The notes below the pieces were generated by a model. The model had not been told where the DNA came from. It did not search any database and was given only the letters and a program-made list of their open reading frames with translations. Positions 5,891-36,852 of a stretch of 36,852 nt of DNA are shown here, piece after piece (position 1 is the first letter of the stretch; the number at the start of each line of letters is the position of its first letter). Position numbers and translations under genes: made by a program. Origin of the DNA: Shackletoniella antarctica (GTDB taxonomy: Bacteria; Cyanobacteriota; Cyanobacteriia; Phormidesmidales; Phormidesmidaceae); NCBI GenBank assembly GCA_003241845.1, contig QBMN01000023.1, positions 1 through 36,852 on the forward strand. Direction: 5' to 3'.

Positions 5891-8035
5891 ATGTCTCAAC
5901 CAGCTGGGCTACAGCTACAAATCAACAGCAGAGATATTCTCAGCACTCAGCACCCAGGTCGCGCGATGAGTCCAAAAGTTCTGCCTGGCCAAAGCTACCC
6001 GTTGGGGGCCACCGTCTACGCCGTCGGGGTCAATTTTTGCCTCTATTCTAAACACGCTACGGGAATAGATCTGCTGCTGTTTGAGGCCGACGACCTCACC
6101 GAACCCAGCCGGGTGATTACCTTAGACCCGCTGTGGAACCGCACCTTTTACTACTGGCACCTGTTTGTGCCGGGGCTAAGAACCGGGCAGGTCTACGCTT
6201 ACCGGGTTCACGGCCCCTTTGACCCGGCCCGTGGCCACCGCTTTGACGCCACCAAGGTGCTGCTCGACCCCTACGCCCGCGCTGTGGTCGGCGACGATAC
6301 CTACGATCGCAGCCGCGCCATTGGCCCCGGCGACAACTGCGCCACCGCCCTCAAGGGGGTAGTTGTTGATACCCGCAACTACGACTGGGGGGGCGATCGC
6401 CCTCTGCACATTCCCTACTCCAGCAGCGTCATCTACGAGATGCACGTGGGCGGCTTTACCCGCCACCCTTCCTCGGGTCTGCCCGACGAGCAGCGGGGCA
6501 CCTACGCCGGGCTGATCGAAAAAATCCCCTACCTGCAAGCGCTGGGCATTACCGCCGTCGAGCTGCTGCCGATTCACCAGTTCGACGCCCACGACGCCAT
6601 GCCCGGCCTAGAGAACTACTGGGGATACAGCACCCTGGGCTTTTTTGCCCCCCACCGGGCCTACAGCTCGCGCAAAGATCCCCTGGGGCCAGTCAACGAG
6701 TTTCGTGACCTGGTCAAGGCCCTGCACAAAGCGGGTATCGAGGTGATTCTCGACGTGGTGTTTAACCACTCCGCCGAAGGCAACCACGAAGGCCCCACCC
6801 TGAGCTTTAAGGGCATCGACAACGAAACCTACTACATGCTCGAAGACAACCCGATCTACTACTCCAACTACAGCGGCTGCGGCAATACCCTCTCGCCCAA
6901 CCACTCCGTTGTGGGGCGGATGATTCTCGACAGCCTGCGCTACTGGGTGTCGGAGATGCATGTGGATGGCTTTCGTTTTGACCTGGCCTCGGTGATGTCG
7001 CGGGATATGATGGGCAACCCCATCGAAGACCCTCCCGTTCTCTGGAATATTGAGTCGGAGCCGATTTTGGCGGGTACTAAGATCATCGCTGAGGCCTGGG
7101 ATGCGGCGGGGCTATACCAGGTGGGCAGCTTTATCGGCGATCGCTTTGCCGAATGGAATGGCCCCTACCGCGACCACGTGCGCCAGTTTATCAAGGGCGA
7201 CGAGGGAGGGGTGCCCGACCTGGCCTCCCGCATTTTGGGCAGCCCCGACATTTACCAAAAGCCCAACCGCGAGCCCAACCGCAGCATTCACTTTGTCACC
7301 TGCCATGACGGCTTTACCCTCAACGACCTGGTGTCGTACAACCAAAAGTACAACCAGGCCAACGGCGAGCACAGCCGCGACGGCACCGACGCCAACTACA
7401 GCTGGAACTGCGGCGTTGAGGGCCTTTCGGCCCCGCCGGAGGTCGAACAGCTGCGCCAGCGGCAGATCAAAAACTTTCTCACCCTGCTGTTTATGGCCCA
7501 GGGCACCCCCATGCTGCTGATGGGCGACGAGGTGCGCCGCACCCAGCGGGGCAACAACAATGCCTACTGCCAAGATAATGAAGTCAGCTGGTTGAATTGG
7601 GATGCTGTGGAGAAAGAACAGCCGCTGCTGCGCTTTACCCAGGGGTTGATTCACTTCATTCAAAACCTGAAGGTGTTTCGCCTAGAGCACATGCTGCGGG
7701 TGACCAGCACCTGGCACTACGAGCCGCACATTGTCTGGCACGGCACTAATCTGAACCAGCCCGACTGGTCTGAGCAGTCTCGCACCCTGGCTTTTACCCT
7801 GCGCTACCCTGACGCCAAGGAAGAGATTCACGTCATGCTCAATGCCTACTGGGAGCCGCTGATGTTTGAGCTGCCGGGGCTGGGGCTGCGCGATCGCTGG
7901 CACCGCATTGTCGATACGTCGGTGGCACCGCCTAGAGACTTTTGCTACCCCGACGAGGCCCCGGTGTTTGAGAGCGATCGCTACCCGGTAGGGGCGCGAT
8001 CGTCCGTAGTGCTGATGAGTCGAGCGCAGGGGTAG
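5891..8035 (+). CDS. glgX: Glycogen debranching enzyme GlgX (isoamylase-type)
   Basis: This GH13 isoamylase-type enzyme hydrolyses alpha-1,6 branches of glycogen in the cytoplasm. An N-terminal CBM48-like module (GQSYPLGATVYAVGVNFCLY, then WHLFVPGLRTGQVYAYRVHG) precedes the catalytic barrel. Conserved region I is DVVFNHSAEG (from Asp288), the nucleophile is Asp364 in GFRFDLAS, the acid/base is Glu401 in IIAEAWD, and the third acid is Asp473 in VTCHDGFT. At 714 residues it is full length. The ATG at 5891 sits directly against AGGGGAA, with almost no spacing; an alternative ATG at 5966 would remove 25 poorly conserved residues. It follows the transporter cluster by 78 bases but looks functionally separate. 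Confidence 0.95.
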   Translation: MSQPAGLQLQINSRDILSTQHPGRAMSPKVLPGQSYPLGATVYAVGVNFCLYSKHATGIDLLLFEADDLTEPSRVITLDPLWNRTFYYWHLFVPGLRTGQVYAYRVHGPFDPARGHRFDATKVLLDPYARAVVGDDTYDRSRAIGPGDNCATALKGVVVDTRNYDWGGDRPLHIPYSSSVIYEMHVGGFTRHPSSGLPDEQRGTYAGLIEKIPYLQALGITAVELLPIHQFDAHDAMPGLENYWGYSTLGFFAPHRAYSSRKDPLGPVNEFRDLVKALHKAGIEVILDVVFNHSAEGNHEGPTLSFKGIDNETYYMLEDNPIYYSNYSGCGNTLSPNHSVVGRMILDSLRYWVSEMHVDGFRFDLASVMSRDMMGNPIEDPPVLWNIESEPILAGTKIIAEAWDAAGLYQVGSFIGDRFAEWNGPYRDHVRQFIKGDEGGVPDLASRILGSPDIYQKPNREPNRSIHFVTCHDGFTLNDLVSYNQKYNQANGEHSRDGTDANYSWNCGVEGLSAPPEVEQLRQRQIKNFLTLLFMAQGTPMLLMGDEVRRTQRGNNNAYCQDNEVSWLNWDAVEKEQPLLRFTQGLIHFIQNLKVFRLEHMLRVTSTWHYEPHIVWHGTNLNQPDWSEQSRTLAFTLRYPDAKEEIHVMLNAYWEPLMFELPGLGLRDRWHRIVDTSVAPPRDFCYPDEAPVFESDRYPVGARSSVVLMSRAQG

Positions 8036-8105
8036 GGCCTTCGAATGGAAGCTACCCGCTCACTTATACCAGGATGACTGGCTCTAAAATAGTAGTGCGA
8101 TCACT

Positions 8106-9566
8106 CTATACTTTGGATGCAGAATCTTTCTTTGTTGCATCGATTATAAAAATATTTTCCGCATTCTCCTGATCGATACTCTTCAGAATTCTTTTAACTT
8201 TTGTTATTTCTGCCTTTGCATAACAAAGAATGACCTTTATGTCACTTATGGATCTAGACGCTTTCTTGTATATTTCAGTTTGATTAAGTAAATTCTTTTT
8301 GAGAGACGAGGATTTTCCTAACTTAAACTCGACGATAGTGGAATCTCTGTCGCCGTATGAAATCTTGTAATCGGCTGAACCGCGACCGTTGTTAACCTCC
8401 GAGTTCACGTCCAAAGGCGATGCAAACCATGTCAAACGAAAGATTCTTTGGATCGTATCTTCTGATGATATTGGCTGACCATCCTTATAAAATATTCTAT
8501 AACCATCATTGTCTTCTATCACCTGCTTTAAATATTGAACACGCTGCAAGGCTGACTGATAGCTATTTGGCGATACCTTGTAAAAGTTGCTATATTCATT
8601 GATGTGTTTACAGAGTTCACCTAGCGTCGAAATTAGCTCTGTACAGAGTTTGTTAACCTTTTCAGCAGATAACGTTGCTGCCTTGTTTCGATTTTCTTCT
8701 TGATGATGTATGTAGTAGTCAAGAATCTCTGGATATCTTTGAACTGTCGCATCAATAGCCTGTCCAACTTCCGTTCTCTTAGGTTTAGCTGGAAGCTTAT
8801 CTTCAAAGTAACGGTTTATTGCATCTCTAAGAGCTGAGTTTTCCAATGCATCTGTTATTTGCCTAAACTTACTTGTAAAATCATTGTGACAGATGAAAGC
8901 ATCATCCTTAGTCAAGATATCTATAGGAGTAAGAATCAGAAAATCTCCATCATTATCTCCCTTATAGAAGTATGGTAGATCGAAAGTCTTGGGTTTCCAA
9001 ATTATTAGACTAGAATCAAAAGAGCAGCGAATAGAAAACTTTTTTCTCTTATTCTCTTGCAAATGCAATCTTGCAAACTCCTGCGTGTATTCCAGCAAAT
9101 GCTCTAACATTAGATTAGTCGTGAAATCGCTAATGAAATCTCTGCCAATTCCTGAACCCACCAGCGTGAGCTTTTCTATATGTGATGAAGCCGTAATGAC
9201 TTCGTTCCCAAAGTTGGTATAAAATCCATTGAATGCTGCAATAAGGTTGCGAGCAAACTGTGATCCCAATCCTTTTCCATTGTTGCCCCATTTACATAGT
9301 CCCAGCCAATTCTGTTTGACTTCCGGGAATTGAAAAATATGCAAGTCAGATTGAGGGTTATTTATAGCGATTTGTTTGAGATTGATTAAATGTTCAACTA
9401 TCTCGTCGTGCAGAGTCTGATATGCTGCTTTATCTGATGCAAAGAGTAGAAAAGGGTCAATAAACAACGGCAAATCAGCCTCAATACATATGTTCAACGC
9501 ACCGTATTTGTCCAGGACAGACACGTCGACTTCAAAATAATCTGAGAAGAGTAACTGACTATTCAT
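8106..9566 (-). CDS. Uncharacterised protein with C-terminal PD-(D/E)XK nuclease-like domain
   Basis: This 486-residue protein sits in visibly AT-rich DNA with no HIP1 octamer, unlike both flanks, so it was probably acquired. The N-terminal part (YFEVDVSVLDKYGALNICI, DLPLFIDPFLLFAS) resembles an uncharacterised bacterial family but gives no known fold by eye. Near the C terminus the pattern of a PD-(D/E)XK nuclease core is visible: Asp399 in SADYKIS, Glu413-x-Lys415 in IVEFKLGKS after a predicted strand, and Gln429-x3-Tyr433 in NQTEIYKKA, like the QxxxY motif of RecB-type nucleases. A long helical stretch (about 260-340) separates the halves. The ATG at 9564-9566 has no strong Shine-Dalgarno sequence. 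A single-gene restriction or anti-phage role is plausible but inferred; a repair nuclease is an alternative. Confidence 0.75.
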   Translation of the reverse strand: MNSQLLFSDYFEVDVSVLDKYGALNICIEADLPLFIDPFLLFASDKAAYQTLHDEIVEHLINLKQIAINNPQSDLHIFQFPEVKQNWLGLCKWGNNGKGLGSQFARNLIAAFNGFYTNFGNEVITASSHIEKLTLVGSGIGRDFISDFTTNLMLEHLLEYTQEFARLHLQENKRKKFSIRCSFDSSLIIWKPKTFDLPYFYKGDNDGDFLILTPIDILTKDDAFICHNDFTSKFRQITDALENSALRDAINRYFEDKLPAKPKRTEVGQAIDATVQRYPEILDYYIHHQEENRNKAATLSAEKVNKLCTELISTLGELCKHINEYSNFYKVSPNSYQSALQRVQYLKQVIEDNDGYRIFYKDGQPISSEDTIQRIFRLTWFASPLDVNSEVNNGRGSADYKISYGDRDSTIVEFKLGKSSSLKKNLLNQTEIYKKASRSISDIKVILCYAKAEITKVKRILKSIDQENAENIFIIDATKKDSASKV

Positions 9567-9876
9567 GAGGCTGAGCTATCTGTTAGGTTTGTAAAAATCT
9601 AATTTTTGATCAACATTAAGCTTATCTCACAAGCTTAGTATCCTTCTCTTTGAAGGTGCAAAACCTTTTGGATGGCTAACGTTTAAGCTGTGCGACGCGA
9701 CGTAAAGAGCGTCCGGACGAGAGCATCTTTAGATTGCGCTCTTAGGATATATTTCTAATATTGTTTGTTTTATATTGGCAGCCTCCCTTGTGATTGGTTC
9801 AATCACCAATTCCTGATTGCCTGAAACTGGTGGCATAAATAGTAATCGTAGGGTGGGCACTGCCCACCATTCACTT
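9567..9876. other. AT-rich intergenic stretch with a GGTGGGCA palindrome
   Basis: This 310-base gap separates the nuclease-like gene from the HicB-like gene, both on the minus strand. At about 9849-9869 it contains GTAGGGTGGGCACTGCCCACC, whose last 17 bases form an imperfect palindrome (GGTGGGCA/TGCCCACC). A near-identical sequence lies inside the repeat at 17990-18097. A short minus-strand open frame here shows no family resemblance and is not called. The upstream half should hold the promoter of the nuclease-like gene, but no clear -10/-35 pair stands out. Confidence 0.5.
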
Positions 9877-10083
9877 TCAGGCAGCAGAAGGTTTGGACTC
9901 AGGCAGGGGCAACCCATCTTCCTCTAGCAAAAGCTGTAAAACCTCTTGACCATTTCGGGCCGCCTCTTCGTAGCTGCTGCCGTGGGTGCGATAGGTCTGC
10001 TCAGAAAAATCGGGAAAATGTACCAGAAAGCAATCGTCCTGTTCTGACCAGACAATCGCCATTTCATGACGAAGCGTGCCCAT
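9877..10083 (-). CDS. HicB-family antitoxin-like protein
   Basis: This 68-residue protein has the HicB partial RNase H-like fold pattern: AIVWSEQDDCFLVHFPDF, then a conserved gap and SSYEEAARNGQEVLQLLLE. HicB proteins neutralise the HicA mRNA interferase and often repress their own operon. No HicA-like reading frame lies next to it; the minus strand just upstream holds only an eroded frame. It may therefore be an orphan antitoxin, or belong to the many stand-alone HicB-like proteins of cyanobacteria. The C-terminal DNA-binding segment of longer HicB proteins is absent. The ATG at 10081-10083 is set by a strong Shine-Dalgarno sequence at 10092-10099. Confidence 0.8.
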   Translation of the reverse strand: MGTLRHEMAIVWSEQDDCFLVHFPDFSEQTYRTHGSSYEEAARNGQEVLQLLLEEDGLPLPESKPSAA

Positions 10084-10091
10084 TACCTTTA

Positions 10092-10099
10092 TCCTCCTT
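10092..10099 (-). promoter_or_regulatory. Ribosome binding site of the HicB-like gene
   Basis: On the minus strand the sequence reads AAGGAGGA, eight bases before the ATG at 10083. This is an unusually complete Shine-Dalgarno sequence for this window, where most genes have weak ones. It fixes the start of the HicB-like gene and suggests efficient or coupled translation after the eroded upstream frame, which ends at 10101. Confidence 0.75.
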
Positions 10100-10100
10100 A

Positions 10101-10373
10101 TTACTTCACTATATTCTGCTGGGCGGGCAATGCTGCCATCTTCATAGATCCTTCCATTGGCTGTCCAATTGCTTCTTTAGCCTCGGTTAACCACTTATCC
10201 AGCGTTGCGATCGCCCCTATCAGCCCCCCGGTACAACCATCGCCATCCTTGGTAGCCTCATCAGCCGCCGTGGATGGTTCTTGCAGTCACCGCGATCGCT
10301 CATCCAGGCTCAAATATCCTTTGATTGCCAGCAGAGGTCTTTCATCCCGCTCAAACGGTATGGGCGGCTTAGG
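10101..10373 (-). pseudogene. Eroded gene upstream of the HicB-like gene
   Basis: The minus strand between 10373 and the stop at 10101-10103 translates as two protein-like segments in a single frame, broken by one TGA at 10287-10289. The first reads PPIPFERDERPLLAIKGYLS followed by LDERSR, and the second includes TGGLIGAIATLDKWLTEAKE and AALPAQQNIVK. A TAA at 10374-10376 ends the readable part upstream, after the frame fragment RYLVGTTELP. No family is recognised. The segment ends 18 bases before the HicB-like ATG, so it may once have been the first gene of that operon. It does not resemble a HicA toxin. Confidence 0.4.
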
Positions 10374-10488
10374 TTAGGGCAGCTCGGTGGTGCCCACCAG
10401 GTAGCGATCGCACCCTCACTCCGCCCCAGGCTGCCAGGGCGGCGGTGTTAGACTGCAAAAGATCAAGAACGCAAAAACGCGCGTCTCC

Positions 10489-11586
10489 ATGACCGTCCAA
10501 ACCAGTATTTTGAAAGGGCAACTCCAGGCCCCCAGCGCTATCGAGGTGCCCATCAGCATTGCGCCCATGATGGATCGCACCGATCGCCACTACCGCTATT
10601 TCATGCGGCAGATTACCCAGCGCACCCTGCTATATACCGAAATGGTGACGGCCCAGGCGATTTTGCACGGCGATCGCGATCATCTGATCGGGTTTACGCC
10701 CCTCGAAAGCCCGCTAGTGCTCCAGGTGGGGGGCGACGACCCGGCAATGCTGGCCACCAGCGCCCGCGCCGCCGCCGACTTTGGCTACGACGCCATCAAT
10801 CTCAACGTGGGCTGCCCCAGCGATCGCGTCCGCAGCGGCAACTTTGGGGCCTGCCTGATGGCCCAGCCCGAGCGCGTCGCCGAGGCCGTGGCGGCGATGA
10901 TGGCCGCCAGCCCCCTGCCCGTCAGCGTCAAGCACCGCATCGGCATTGACGAGCTAGACCGCTACGAAGACATGGTGCACTTTGTCAGCACCGTGGCCCA
11001 GACTGGCTGCCGCCACTTCACGGTGCATGCCCGCAAAGCCTGGCTCCAGGGGTTAAGCCCTAAAGACAATCGCACCGTTCCCCCCCTGCGCTACGGCGAG
11101 GTGCACCGCCTCAAGCAAGACTTCCCCCACCTGTGGATTGAGATCAACGGTGGCTTCACTCGCCTAGAGCAGGCGACCGAACAGCTCAACCAAGTGGATG
11201 CGGTGATGATTGGTCGCGCCGCCTACGACCATCCCTACCTGTTTGCCGGCGTAGACCAGCGCTTTTGGGGCGCGAGCGGCGAAGCGTCTAGGCTCCCCCA
11301 GGCTGCCCTCCACCAGCCCGATCGCCATCAGGTGGCCGAGGCCATGCTGCCCTACATTGACCACTGGGTGCGCCAGGGCACCAGGCTCAACAAAATTACC
11401 CGCCACATGCTAATGCTGTTTGCGGGGCAGCCCGGCAGCCGCCTGTGGAAGCAGATTTTGACCGAAAGGTCTTGCCAACCGGGGGCGGGGGCTGAGGTGG
11501 TGCAGCAGGCCCTAGCGGCGGTGGTGCACCAGGGCGAGATTCAGGTCGAACTAAGGGCCGCTCAGCCCCTGGGTGCCCGTAGCTAG
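10489..11586 (+). CDS. dusA: tRNA-dihydrouridine synthase DusA
   Basis: This FMN-dependent enzyme reduces uridine to dihydrouridine in the tRNA D-loop (positions 20/20a for DusA). The TIM-barrel family signatures are complete: ISIAPMMDRTDRHYRYFMRQ at the N terminus, NLNVGCPSDRV with the catalytic Cys109, FGACLM, SVKHRIGIDE, the DusA-specific HARKAWLQGLSPKDNR, EINGGF and MIGRAAYDHPYLF. At 365 residues it is slightly longer than E. coli DusA. The ATG at 10489 leaves about 20 extra N-terminal residues, which is common in this family. Its 3' end overlaps the 3' end of the convergent propeller gene by 36 bases. Confidence 0.95.
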   Translation: MTVQTSILKGQLQAPSAIEVPISIAPMMDRTDRHYRYFMRQITQRTLLYTEMVTAQAILHGDRDHLIGFTPLESPLVLQVGGDDPAMLATSARAAADFGYDAINLNVGCPSDRVRSGNFGACLMAQPERVAEAVAAMMAASPLPVSVKHRIGIDELDRYEDMVHFVSTVAQTGCRHFTVHARKAWLQGLSPKDNRTVPPLRYGEVHRLKQDFPHLWIEINGGFTRLEQATEQLNQVDAVMIGRAAYDHPYLFAGVDQRFWGASGEASRLPQAALHQPDRHQVAEAMLPYIDHWVRQGTRLNKITRHMLMLFAGQPGSRLWKQILTERSCQPGAGAEVVQQALAAVVHQGEIQVELRAAQPLGARS

Positions 11587-33361: not shown

Positions 33362-34753
33362 ATGGCAACTCTCACCCCCAACCCCAGTTATAGTCTCAGT
33401 CTGCGGCTTAAAATTCCCAATAAAACCGGCATGTTGGCGCGGGTTACCCAGGCCATTGCCGAGGCCGGGGGCAACCTGGGCGATTTTTCACTAATCAGCC
33501 GCACCCGCTATGACATGGTGCGGGTGCTCCATGTCGATGCCTCCAGCGAGGCCCACGTAGAAGACATCATCGCGGCGGTCAAAACCGTGGAAGAGATCGA
33601 GATTCTAGAGATCTGCGATCGCACCTTTCAGATCCACGAGGGCGGCAAGATCAGCGTCGAGAGCAAGCTGGAGCTGCACAACCAGGATGACCTGGCCATG
33701 GCCTACACCCCTGGCGTGGGGAGGGTCTGTGTCGAAATTGCCGAGCACCCCGATCGCGTGTATGACCTCACCATCAAGGGCAATACCGTGGCGATTGTCA
33801 CCGACGGCAGCGCCGTGCTGGGGCTGGGCAATCTCGGCCCCGCCGCCGCCCTGCCGGTGATGGAGGGCAAGGCGCTGCTGTTTAAGAAATTTGCCGGGTT
33901 AGACGCCTTCCCGATCTGCCTCGATACCCAGGACACCGACGAGATTATCAAGGCGGTGAAACAGCTGGCGCCCGTCTTTGGCGGCGTCAACCTGGAAGAT
34001 ATCAGCGCCCCCCGCTGCTTTGAGATCGAGTCTCGCCTGCGTCAGGAGCTAGATATTCCGGTCTTTCACGATGACCAGCACGGCACCGCCATTGTCACCC
34101 TGGCGGCGCTGGTCAACGCGCTCAAGCTGGTGAACAAATCGCTCACCCAGGTGAAGGTGGTGATCAACGGGGCCGGGGCGGCGGGGGTGGCGATCGCCAA
34201 GCTGCTGCAAAAGGCCGGGGCAACCGCCATTGTGCTGTGCGACTCGAAGGGCATTATTTCCACCAGACGCGACGACCTGAACGCCCAGAAACAGGAGTTT
34301 GCGGTAGAAGCATCGGGCACCCTGGCCGATGCCATGGTGGGGGCCGATATTTTCCTGGGCGTCAGCGCGCCGGGGGTGGTCAGCGTCGAGATGGTGGCAT
34401 CGATGGCGACTGACCCAATTGTGTTTGCCATGGCCAACCCGATCCCCGAGATTCAGCCTGAGCTGGTGGCGGACAAGGTGGCGGTAATGGCCACGGGCCG
34501 CAGCGACTATCCCAACCAGATCAACAACGTGCTGGCCTTCCCCGGCATGCTGCGCGGTGCCCTCGACTGCCGCGCCCAGGAGATTACGCCCTCGATGTAT
34601 CTGGAGGCGGCCTATGCGATCGCGGCCCTGGTCAACCCCCACGAACTCACCCGCGAGCACATCATTCCTTCAGTGTTTGACGAGCGGGTGTCTACCGCTG
34701 TGGCCTCGGCGGTCAAACACGCCGCTAGGGTCGATGGAGTGGCAAGAAAGTAG
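33362..34753 (+). CDS. Malic enzyme with N-terminal ACT domain
   Basis: This enzyme oxidatively decarboxylates malate to pyruvate and CO2. An ACT domain of about 75 residues ([40 protein letters not shown]) comes first and probably makes it sensitive to an amino acid. The malic enzyme core follows: [40 protein letters not shown] with the NAD-site glycines, [37 protein letters not shown], and [15 protein letters not shown] as the second nucleotide fold. At 463 residues it fits the NAD(P)-dependent prokaryotic form. Cofactor choice cannot be settled from sequence alone. Confidence 0.93.
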
Positions 34754-35137
34754 GGGGATGAGAACGTTGAAACCTTGGAAGCCTGAGTTCGGGGTAATGG
34801 CCCCCTCCTCGGAGGGGGATCCGGAGGGCGGGATGATTCAAAACTCATGCAGAATACAAGTCTCTGAATACGGTTAATTGCTTTCCTGGGTTCAATTGAC
34901 CCACTCCTACCCCTCCCGGTCGGGGACAGGGGAGCTGTTTCTGCACTACTAAGGCATTTTGGCTATTGGTCAGCCAAGCAGGCGGGCTTTTGACTGCCTG
35001 TCGCCACTAAAGCGGCGACCAAGGTGAAAATAGTACAAGGAAATGTTTTTTTACTCCATTGCTTAGGTGTGTTGATTAAAATACACTTGCTTTGTCATGT
35101 TCTCAGTTAGTGCTAAATCTTTACCAAGAGAAAGACT
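34754..35137. other. Intergenic boundary between GC-rich DNA and an AT-rich island
   Basis: This 384-base gap holds a CCCCCTCC/GGAGGGGG hairpin at 34801-34818, a GC-rich CCCCTCCC/AGGGGAG-like repeat fragment at about 34908-34933, and a GTCGCC/GGCGAC hairpin at 35000-35019. From about 35020 the base composition turns AT-rich and stays so to the end of the next two genes. A promoter for the island genes probably lies at about 35035-35120, but no convincing -35/-10 pair was fixed. Confidence 0.45.
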
Positions 35138-35917
35138 ATGTTATCAGTGACTCACGATTCAATCACAAAGCACTTTGAATCAATTGAATCGCATAAAGCT
35201 ATTATACATCCCCTCTTTGAGTGGTTAAACGAGCAAAGCATTGATCGTTTTTCTGACGCAATTCTTTTCGATATATATCGAACCAATTATTTTACGCGCA
35301 CTCAAGGAATCACATCTGCCATATCTGAAATACTGAAAGCAGCAATTGAAGAATCAGACTCCCTAACGATAGCTCTCGTTGGCATGAATATTTTCGAGGA
35401 AACGGGAGAAGGCGATTCTAAAAATACTCATTTGATGATGCTTCAGGATTCTCATAATCAACATGGAGAGTTTATCTTCAATCTAGCTCCAATCCCCATT
35501 AAATTAGCTAGGCATAATGATCATACACTTAATCATACACTTAAATCTTTTCGTAATTTTCCTGAAAATCGAATGCACCTGTACTCAAATACCTCATACC
35601 TTTTCAAGTTAGGCGTCATGCTGGCAGACGAGACTGCTGCCGTCCCTATGATAGAAGGCTTCTACAAAGCCTTTTTTAAGCCCTATGAGAAACTATATAC
35701 AAAGAAGGATTTTCAAAGCATGTCTCAATACTTTTCTTCTCACTTGTCTGGTGTTGAGCAGCGGCATGGTAGTGATATATTACAGGCCGTTGATAATAAT
35801 TTTAAATCGATATCAGATCTTGATGAAGTCATGTATGGAATAGAATCCTTTTTTAGGATTCAATCTGATATTTGGGATGACTTATTACTTGCGTTATTAA
35901 CAGCCAAGAGAGGCTAG
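35138..35917 (+). CDS. Heme-oxygenase-like putative di-iron oxidase/oxygenase
   Basis: This is a mostly helical protein of 259 residues with the pattern of the iron-containing heme-oxygenase-like enzymes (TenA/PqqC fold; relatives include UndA, CADD and SznF-type N-oxygenases). Candidate metal ligands are Glu87/Glu88 and His98 in NIFEETGEGDSKNTHLMML, Glu165 in GVMLADETAAVPMIEGFYKA, and His202, Glu207 and His210 in YFSSHLSGVEQRHGSD. The last motif is H-x4-E-x2-H, where H-x3-(D/E)-x2-H is usual. The gene is AT-rich, lacks HIP1 sites and is followed after 31 bases by an AraC regulator gene, so the pair looks horizontally acquired. Products of such enzymes include alkenes, p-aminobenzoate and N-oxides; which applies here is unknown. 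Confidence 0.65.
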   Translation: MLSVTHDSITKHFESIESHKAIIHPLFEWLNEQSIDRFSDAILFDIYRTNYFTRTQGITSAISEILKAAIEESDSLTIALVGMNIFEETGEGDSKNTHLMMLQDSHNQHGEFIFNLAPIPIKLARHNDHTLNHTLKSFRNFPENRMHLYSNTSYLFKLGVMLADETAAVPMIEGFYKAFFKPYEKLYTKKDFQSMSQYFSSHLSGVEQRHGSDILQAVDNNFKSISDLDEVMYGIESFFRIQSDIWDDLLLALLTAKRG

Positions 35918-35948
35918 AAATGAAAACACTCAGGAAAGCAGAGAAGAT

Positions 35949-36779
35949 ATGAGTGATATACCCTCCCATGAAATGGTTCCAGGTCGTCAATTTCACATTT
36001 TTCCATTGGAAGGTTACTCTGGCAATACCTTTCCTCATAAACATAATTTCTACGAAATTATATGGCCTTGGCAAGGAGATGGAATCCATTTAATTGATTT
36101 TCAAGAGCATTCACTAGATAGCCATGCTGTTTTCCTTCTTAAGCCAGACCAAGTAAATAAATTTGCCTCCAAGAATTTAGCAGGCTACATAATAGAGTTT
36201 AGTGAGCCTTTTTTATGCCACGAACCTCAAGACAGAGTTGTGCTTGAGAAACTATGCCAATCAAATCATTTTCAGTTGAATTCTAGCGTGGAATCAGCAG
36301 TTAGAAAACTATTAGCCCTCCTTTATCAGGAGTACTTGTCAGAAGACAGCAGATCTGACCTGATAAGAACTTATTTGAAGGCAATTATTATCAATCTTTC
36401 AAAAGTACTGAAAAGCGCTGATTTAGCCATATACGATGGAGATACAGAAAGAATTGCTCACATAAATAAACTTTTAAGGGAAAATTTCAAGACACATAAG
36501 AATGTAAAATTCTATGCTAATTCTTTATCTTTAACCCCAAAGCGATTGAACGAAATTCTGAAGCTTAAGACTGGTAAAACCATGACAGAGCTAATTCATA
36601 ATCGTTTGGAGATGGAAGCACGCAGAGAATTAATATTTGGTCAACTTAGTGTGAAAGATATTGCCTTAAAGTTAGGGTTTGATGATCCATCCTACTTCAG
36701 TCGGTTTTTCTTGCGAACGGCTGGCATGTATCCACAGGATTATAGAAAAAATAACCACTTTAGTGTGACTAATCAATAA
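35949..36779 (+). CDS. AraC-family transcriptional regulator
   Basis: This 276-residue regulator has an N-terminal cupin-like sensor half (GNTFPHKHNFYEIIWPWQGD, FLLKPDQVNKFAS) and a C-terminal AraC DNA-binding domain with two helix-turn-helix motifs. The first lies around VKFYANSLSLTPKRLNEILK and the second around SVKDIALKLGFDDPSYFSRF, followed by FFLRTAGMYPQDYRKN. It starts at the ATG at 35949, 31 bases after the heme-oxygenase-like gene, with a weak AGAGAAG upstream. Co-transcription is likely, and it probably controls that gene and perhaps genes beyond the window. Like its neighbour it is AT-rich. Confidence 0.92.
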   Translation: MSDIPSHEMVPGRQFHIFPLEGYSGNTFPHKHNFYEIIWPWQGDGIHLIDFQEHSLDSHAVFLLKPDQVNKFASKNLAGYIIEFSEPFLCHEPQDRVVLEKLCQSNHFQLNSSVESAVRKLLALLYQEYLSEDSRSDLIRTYLKAIIINLSKVLKSADLAIYDGDTERIAHINKLLRENFKTHKNVKFYANSLSLTPKRLNEILKLKTGKTMTELIHNRLEMEARRELIFGQLSVKDIALKLGFDDPSYFSRFFLRTAGMYPQDYRKNNHFSVTNQ

Positions 36780-36831
36780 AAATTTCATTAGTTTTCTGCA
36801 ATTTCTCAATCACCGCTGGTAAAGACAGGCC
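36769..36831 (-). pseudogene. Possible C-terminal remnant of a minus-strand gene
   Basis: The minus strand at the edge of the window reads GLSLPAVIEKLQKTNEIFID to a stop at 36769-36771, which has a coherent, protein-like composition. Immediately upstream an in-frame TAG (36832-36834) interrupts LRNP. The segment overlaps the end of the AraC gene by about 11 bases. It may be the tail of a broken gene that continues past the window; the evidence is thin. Confidence 0.25.
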
Positions 36832-36852
36832 CTAGGGATTGCGCAAAGAGGC

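Follow-up and report, generated by a model that had tools for sequence, protein, structure and literature searches.

The end of a contig of the cyanobacterium Shackletoniella antarctica carries an acquired, self-contained gene block encoding a probable heme-oxygenase-like dimetal oxidase (HDO). The superfamily is known, and in the open-access literature we found no paper on an HDO in an RhtA-type or aminotransferase/exporter context, or on a horizontally acquired, AraC-linked HDO of cyanobacteria. The window, i.e., the whole stretch of DNA that was analysed (36,852 nt), is the entire contig C155 of a genome assembled in 287 contigs. We explain the block best as an acquired cassette in which a single enzyme, accompanied by one regulator and one exporter, acts on an amino-acid-like molecule, a reading that we give an even chance of being correct. 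Within the window the block comprises the following features:

34754..35137 (strand not applicable): left end of the inserted block, including the HDO leader
35138..35917 (plus strand): gene of a probable HDO-type dimetal oxidase, 259 aa (open reading frame, Pfam PF14518, ligand candidates, fold of a relative)
35949..36779 (plus strand): gene of an AraC-family regulator, 276 aa, with an N-terminal AraC_binding (cupin-type) domain (open reading frame, Pfam)
36790..36797 (strand not applicable): 8-bp target duplication AGTTTTCT, left of an insertion element; a second copy follows the right end of the element on contig C227
36798..36852 (strand not applicable; last 55 bases): left end of the IS66-type element, a multi-copy end sequence in which the contig stops

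The preliminary description of this DNA, made from the letters of the window, had presented the HDO and AraC genes as an acquired, AT-rich two-gene island free of HIP1, and this picture was confirmed. Both open reading frames are intact, lie on the plus strand and are separated by 31 bp. GC content is 0.37 at 35001-36500, as compared to 0.51-0.66 over most of the remaining window. HIP1 (GCGATCGC) occurs 46 times in the window with its last copy at 34616, and is thus missing from the island; since the density is just 1.25 per kb and the DNA is AT-rich, this absence is only weakly surprising. HIP1 density and gene content point to a cyanobacterial host. Third-position GC is 0.34 for the HDO gene, 0.33 for the AraC gene and 0.34 for the exporter gene described below, versus 0.79 (malic enzyme) and 0.68 for the two host flanks. 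No tRNA gene was found in the window. The malic enzyme gene is located directly upstream of the HDO gene on the same contig (stop codon at 34751-34753), so contamination does not explain the HDO-AraC pair. Homology in relatives ends at this stop codon, and because GC falls from 0.58 to 0.34 across 34754-35137, the exact left boundary of the block is approximate.

The contig stops within a repeated sequence: the element end at 36798-36852 recurs at six other sites of the genome, five of which are contig starts (C60, C108, C199, C264 and C275; the sixth copy is at C276:4084-4138). A homologous full-length copy in another genome (G386) has 1794 bp and encodes an IS66-family transposase (PF03050, 73.2 bits), with CTTTCTCA adjoining each of its ends. 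For the assignment to IS66 the transposase comes from the G386 copy, and the copy studied here contributes the 8-bp duplication. The right end of the element joined to AGTTTTCT (18 bases) has one exact match in the genome, at C227:38070-38087 on the minus strand, 142 bases from the end of this 38219-base contig. Four further matches carry 2 or 3 mismatches, and a reversed control pattern gave 1 match per strand of the same genome within the same mismatch limit. To test the join, we used stretches from twelve of the related genomes; a malic-enzyme match was present in 35 of the 38 genomes searched. In 10 of the twelve, the malic enzyme gene is followed by the same acetyltransferase gene after a gap of 26-101 bp from the aligned end, and in the other two (L112, L113) the fetched stretch does not contain the acetyltransferase. 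Because the host flanks are so close to each other in these relatives, the join of C155 and C227 is confirmed independently and the intervening block is an insertion. The inserted DNA between malic enzyme and acetyltransferase comprises some 2.0 kb of the window and roughly 1.4 kb of C227, with the IS in between. The same element type breaks the assembly at several contigs, and pairing of element ends by their target duplications can be used to join contigs.

Beyond the window, the join adds two features:

C227 about 38078-38199 (outside the window): right end of the IS66-type element
C227:36812-37681 (minus strand; L066:18616-19482 without the stop codon): RhtA-like exporter gene, 289 aa (NCBIfam, Pfam)

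The AT-rich exporter gene is the first on C227 when moving away from the element, and is followed by genes of host composition, which we take to be the acetyltransferase and then a MacB-like permease. Its product scores 80.1 bits with the EamA/DMT carrier family PF00892 (cut-off 28.2). It aligns with the RhtA threonine/homoserine exporter over 269 residues, but with 215.8 bits it remains below the equivalog cut-off of 354 of NCBIfam RhtA (NF007823). Between the HDO gene and the host genes, the IS interior aside, we saw no enzyme for acyl-CoA, amino acids or peptides. The preliminary description had noticed no other biosynthetic gene and had left two options, a cluster continuing past 36852 or a one-enzyme pathway. 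Extension past this position gave the exporter and then host genes: the island does continue, by one gene beyond the IS, and no second biosynthetic enzyme was found.

Since their third-position GC is equal, the three genes look like one foreign block, and our confidence in this block is good. That HDO and exporter also share a function we only infer, because carriers of the RhtA/EamA type are common and about 400 bp separate the insertion point from the exporter start. The HDO-AraC pair and the RhtA-like gene may have arrived together for different ends, or may have come separately; we regard such unlinked cargo as rather unlikely. The equal third-position GC and the location of all three genes within one insertion, bounded by the same pair of host genes, argue against it, whereas it would agree with the roughly 400 bp on the C227 side ahead of the exporter, which hold no open reading frame of at least 100 aa, with the IS that separates the exporter from HDO-AraC, with the absence of this grouping from the 15 loci of relatives described below, and with an overall GC content of 0.40-0.48 on the side of the exporter, slightly above the 0.37 of HDO-AraC.

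We consider the window protein a probable HDO and hold this class with high confidence, on the strength of an alignment and of a modelled relative; the class is better supported via the relatives than via the Pfam score of the window protein itself. Pfam PF14518 (Iron-containing redox enzyme) matches the protein with an E value of 1.9e-5 and 25 bits, below the curated cut-off of 28.9. We took this family as a weak marker of the HDO superfamily and not as its defining feature, because BesC-type and other HDOs have models of their own. In an alignment of the window HDO with twelve relatives from genomes, all 13 members match PF14518 at E <= 0.01 (best 1.1e-10), and there is no variation at E87, E88, H98, E165, H202, E207 and H210, nor at R48, N50, R54, T55 and D74. 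By alignment, the candidate set of three histidines and three carboxylates that is described for HDOs in a review (PMC13108848) is thus present as E88 (or E87), H98, E165, H202, E207 and H210. The codons of these candidate metal ligands, each invariant in 13 of 13 sequences, are:

35399..35401 (plus strand): E88, whose neighbour E87 is also invariant; E88-H98 spacing 10
35429..35431 (plus strand): H98
35630..35632 (plus strand): E165, in an ADET motif that aligns with the ADET of BesC
35741..35743 (plus strand): H202, forming H-x4-E-x2-H with E207 and H210
35756..35758 (plus strand): E207
35765..35767 (plus strand): H210

The spacing of E88 and H98 is that of E215 and H225 in SznF, according to the description of that enzyme in PMC11705231. 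In core helix 3, the canonical spacing is H-x3-D/E-x2-H (reference SznF H311, D315, H318); the window protein has H202-x4-E207-x2-H210, and its relatives have x5 or x6 in place of x3. MboA, a proven HDO, departs from the canonical spacing in another way, with H172, D176 and H181 as given in PMC13185094.

A direct search of the window HDO sequence against solved structures gave no significant match. Its predicted model was of low confidence (pLDDT 49.8, pTM 0.39); Foldseek with this model returned no PDB match at E <= 0.001, with PqqC and heme oxygenases among the first rows. From the same 13 sequences, with the relative L039 (30% identical to the window HDO) as query, a model with pLDDT 94 and pTM 0.90 was obtained. 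Foldseek with the L039 model resulted in 11 matches at E <= 0.001, including HrmI, BesC and a CADD-like protein of Nostoc, and HDOs head the list. VIA-align gave Z values of 24.4 for HrmI, 23.1 for the CADD-like protein, 22.9 for BesC, 22.4 for CtCADD, 21.9 for FlcD, 20.6 for UndA and 20.4 for PolF. Metal-free PqqC also reached 20.1, and TenA and heme oxygenase were likewise among the Foldseek matches. Because these proteins match too, the assignment to the HDO class is based on fold and ligand set together, not on the fold alone. Structure prediction was thus favourable to the earlier idea of a TenA/PqqC-like fold for the relative, the model of the window protein itself being of low confidence. 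The HDO-type enzyme of the preliminary description is upheld by the invariant ligand candidates and by the HDO fold modelled for the relative, with iron binding as a prediction.

A 2026 review (PMC13108848) counts over 10,000 HDO sequences with about a dozen validated, and HDO chemistry is hard to predict from sequence. As described there, fatty acids and amino acids are the main substrates of the characterised members, and HrmI, BesC and PolF use free amino acids. UndA, HrmI, AetD, SktA and PolF are described as working alone (PMC13108848; PMC12614342). The best fold match of the L039 model is HrmI, a lysine N-oxygenase (PDB 9nh9, 9n1x; rmsd 2.6, 222 residues aligned), at 14% identity. Judged by length (259 versus 336-343 residues), the window HDO is missing the extra N-terminal part of HrmI. 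BesC, the 4-chloro-allylglycine synthase (PDB 7twa), was the sole known HDO enzyme found by sequence, with a profile E value of 0.0017 for the whole sequence and 0.058 for its best stretch, and it shares the ADET motif. The single-sequence match to BesC (E 0.38) lacked significance and ranked after an unrelated proline-tRNA ligase (E 0.27), and the window HDO scored 16.5 bits with the BesC equivalog model NF042919 of NCBIfam (cut-off 500). The azetidine synthase PolF (10% identity) belongs to the polyoxin pathway; it is described as forming, on its own, a new amino acid from free Ile or Val (PMC12614342).

Relatives of the window HDO were found in 3 plasmid records and at 12 genome loci (L002, L003, L004 and L039-L050, around position 10001), and are 26-33% identical over most of the length. 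These 15 loci are not independent: most are from Streptomyces, three represent one Pseudoalteromonas species, and twelve were found by patterns seeded from the first three. At all 15 loci the HDO gene is directly followed by a class I/II aminotransferase gene. A flavoprotein (FAD/NAD(P)-binding) is encoded at 11 (one partial), a cupin at 10, an O-methyltransferase at 9, a TauE carrier at 8 and a YczE-like membrane protein at 5 of them. None of the 15 loci has a protein match to the window AraC or to the exporter. This HDO-aminotransferase operon of Streptomyces, Nocardia, Vibrio, Pseudoalteromonas and Acinetobacter shares the ligand candidates and R48, N50, R54, T55 and D74 with the window HDO, in which the gap between H202 and E207 is 1 to 2 residues shorter. 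In contrast to the operon, the window gene is followed by the AraC gene, with the exporter and then host genes on C227, and has no aminotransferase neighbour. Among the NCBIfam models, the aminotransferase of the operon comes closest to guanitoxin GntC, with 166.6 bits against a cut-off of 415. The operon seems to encode an uncharacterised pathway shared across phyla, and we found no paper on it in the open-access literature.

Closer relatives were searched in several genome sets, and none was found in these samples. Among 386 genomes of the host phylum the window HDO had a match in one, namely the host genome itself. Among 57 kin genomes a match was present in two, the host genome and G416, the latter with a distant PF14518 protein; in the phylum of G430, G430 itself was the only match in 398 genomes. 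A peptide-pattern scan of genome contigs yielded 24 stretches with no HDO relative among them, phages gave no HDO match, and the 28 stretches from viral contigs contained no relative. Since the genome samples are incomplete and the pattern scans respond only to identical short peptides, there may be closer relatives. The PF14518 protein of G416, which belongs to the family of the host, is encoded at L032 1012-1809 (E 1e-17) beside a probable methyltransferase gene.

The aminotransferase that adjoins the HDO gene in 15 of 15 relative loci raises the question whether the block is the remnant of a longer pathway, whose ancestor had more enzymes and whose partner enzyme is now elsewhere in the genome. 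The host genome does contain two matches to the Vibrio aminotransferase, at C210 (33% identity, E 1e-34) and C276 (25%, E 2e-10). Neither is part of the island or located on C155 or C227, an ordinary aminotransferase could presumably also reach 33% identity, and no enzyme remnant was seen in the block between the host flanks. A remnant therefore appears unlikely to us.

The regulator beside the enzyme proved to be as first described: HTH_18 was matched with 71.8 bits (cut-off 33.6) and AraC_binding with 29.2 bits (cut-off 21.1). A link of AraC to HDO genes at other places was sought and rejected, as there was no HDO neighbour at the best matches of the cyanobacterial sample (L006, L007) or at two plasmid loci (Vibrio campbellii and Polaromonas, 2 of the 513 plasmid records). 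A possible HDO near AraC in the Vibrio plasmid locus, a 42-residue stretch with an E value of 0.027, lay within an unrelated open reading frame. A promoter scan revealed no promoter-like site on the coding strand of the HDO leader, and the count across the region was at chance level (6 versus 5.7 expected); a terminator scan of the region found no terminator. A 9-base word (TGTTGATTA) shared in opposite orientation by the leaders of the HDO and exporter genes was discarded as operator, as by our estimate chance alone should yield about 0.5 matches of this kind.

Returning to the acquired cassette, we propose that the three genes HDO, AraC and RhtA-like exporter were horizontally acquired together, and that the IS66-type element later split AraC from the exporter. 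Alignment and the model of the relative suggest that E88, H98, E165, H202, E207 and H210 of the HDO would coordinate two metal ions, probably iron. From what is known of these families, and from the type of exporter, we would expect the enzyme to activate O2 as a peroxo-dimetal species and to oxidise, on its own, one small amino-acid-like substrate; our confidence in this substrate class is moderate. AraC, probably on the same transcript as the HDO, may switch on the block in response to a ligand recognised by its N-terminal domain, and the carrier may export the product or shield the cell from it. Because no other enzyme was seen and there is a regulator of ligand-sensing type and a carrier of amino-acid type, the block can be read as a pathway in which a single enzyme converts a free amino acid, or an analogue of one, to a product that is then exported; HDO, AraC and exporter may act jointly. 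What counts against this cassette is that its grouping occurs in none of the 15 relative loci, that the window HDO scores under the PF14518 cut-off and has a model of low confidence, that PqqC shares the fold, and that the coding strand of the HDO leader shows no promoter-like site.

A regulator of ligand-sensing type and an exporter would fit resistance as well as production. The HDO might then degrade a toxic amino acid analogue, which AraC senses and the carrier expels, but in the review functionally validated HDOs are presented as biosynthetic (PMC13108848), and we assign a low probability to such a detoxification. Less probable still is a self-sacrificing p-aminobenzoate synthase of the CADD/PabS type, for which Tyr27 and Lys152 are given as the sacrificed residues of CADD (PMC13108848), or a fatty acid decarboxylase of the UndA type: both are fold neighbours of L039, but neither role would be expected to come with a dedicated regulator or an amino-acid-type exporter.

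More specifically, and tentatively, the acquired cassette may represent a new HDO lineage, with altered spacing in core helix 3 and no close relative found, that alone converts a host amino acid into a non-standard one not known before, is switched on by AraC and has its product exported by a dedicated RhtA-type carrier. If true, this would be the smallest HDO pathway that is both self-contained and mobile. With a single enzyme, regulator and exporter between host genes on either side, the question narrows sharply to one protein and one substrate, and the product may be sought in the medium. If the three genes cooperate, the ligand of the regulator and the cargo of the exporter offer independent routes to this product.

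The GC scan of the window showed a second AT-rich stretch near 7500-10500, the exception to the range of 0.51-0.66. A 486-aa open reading frame at 8106-9566 on the minus strand (GC 0.38-0.42) has no Pfam family match and matches the PADLOC candidate defence family PDC-M36A with an E value of 4e-17.
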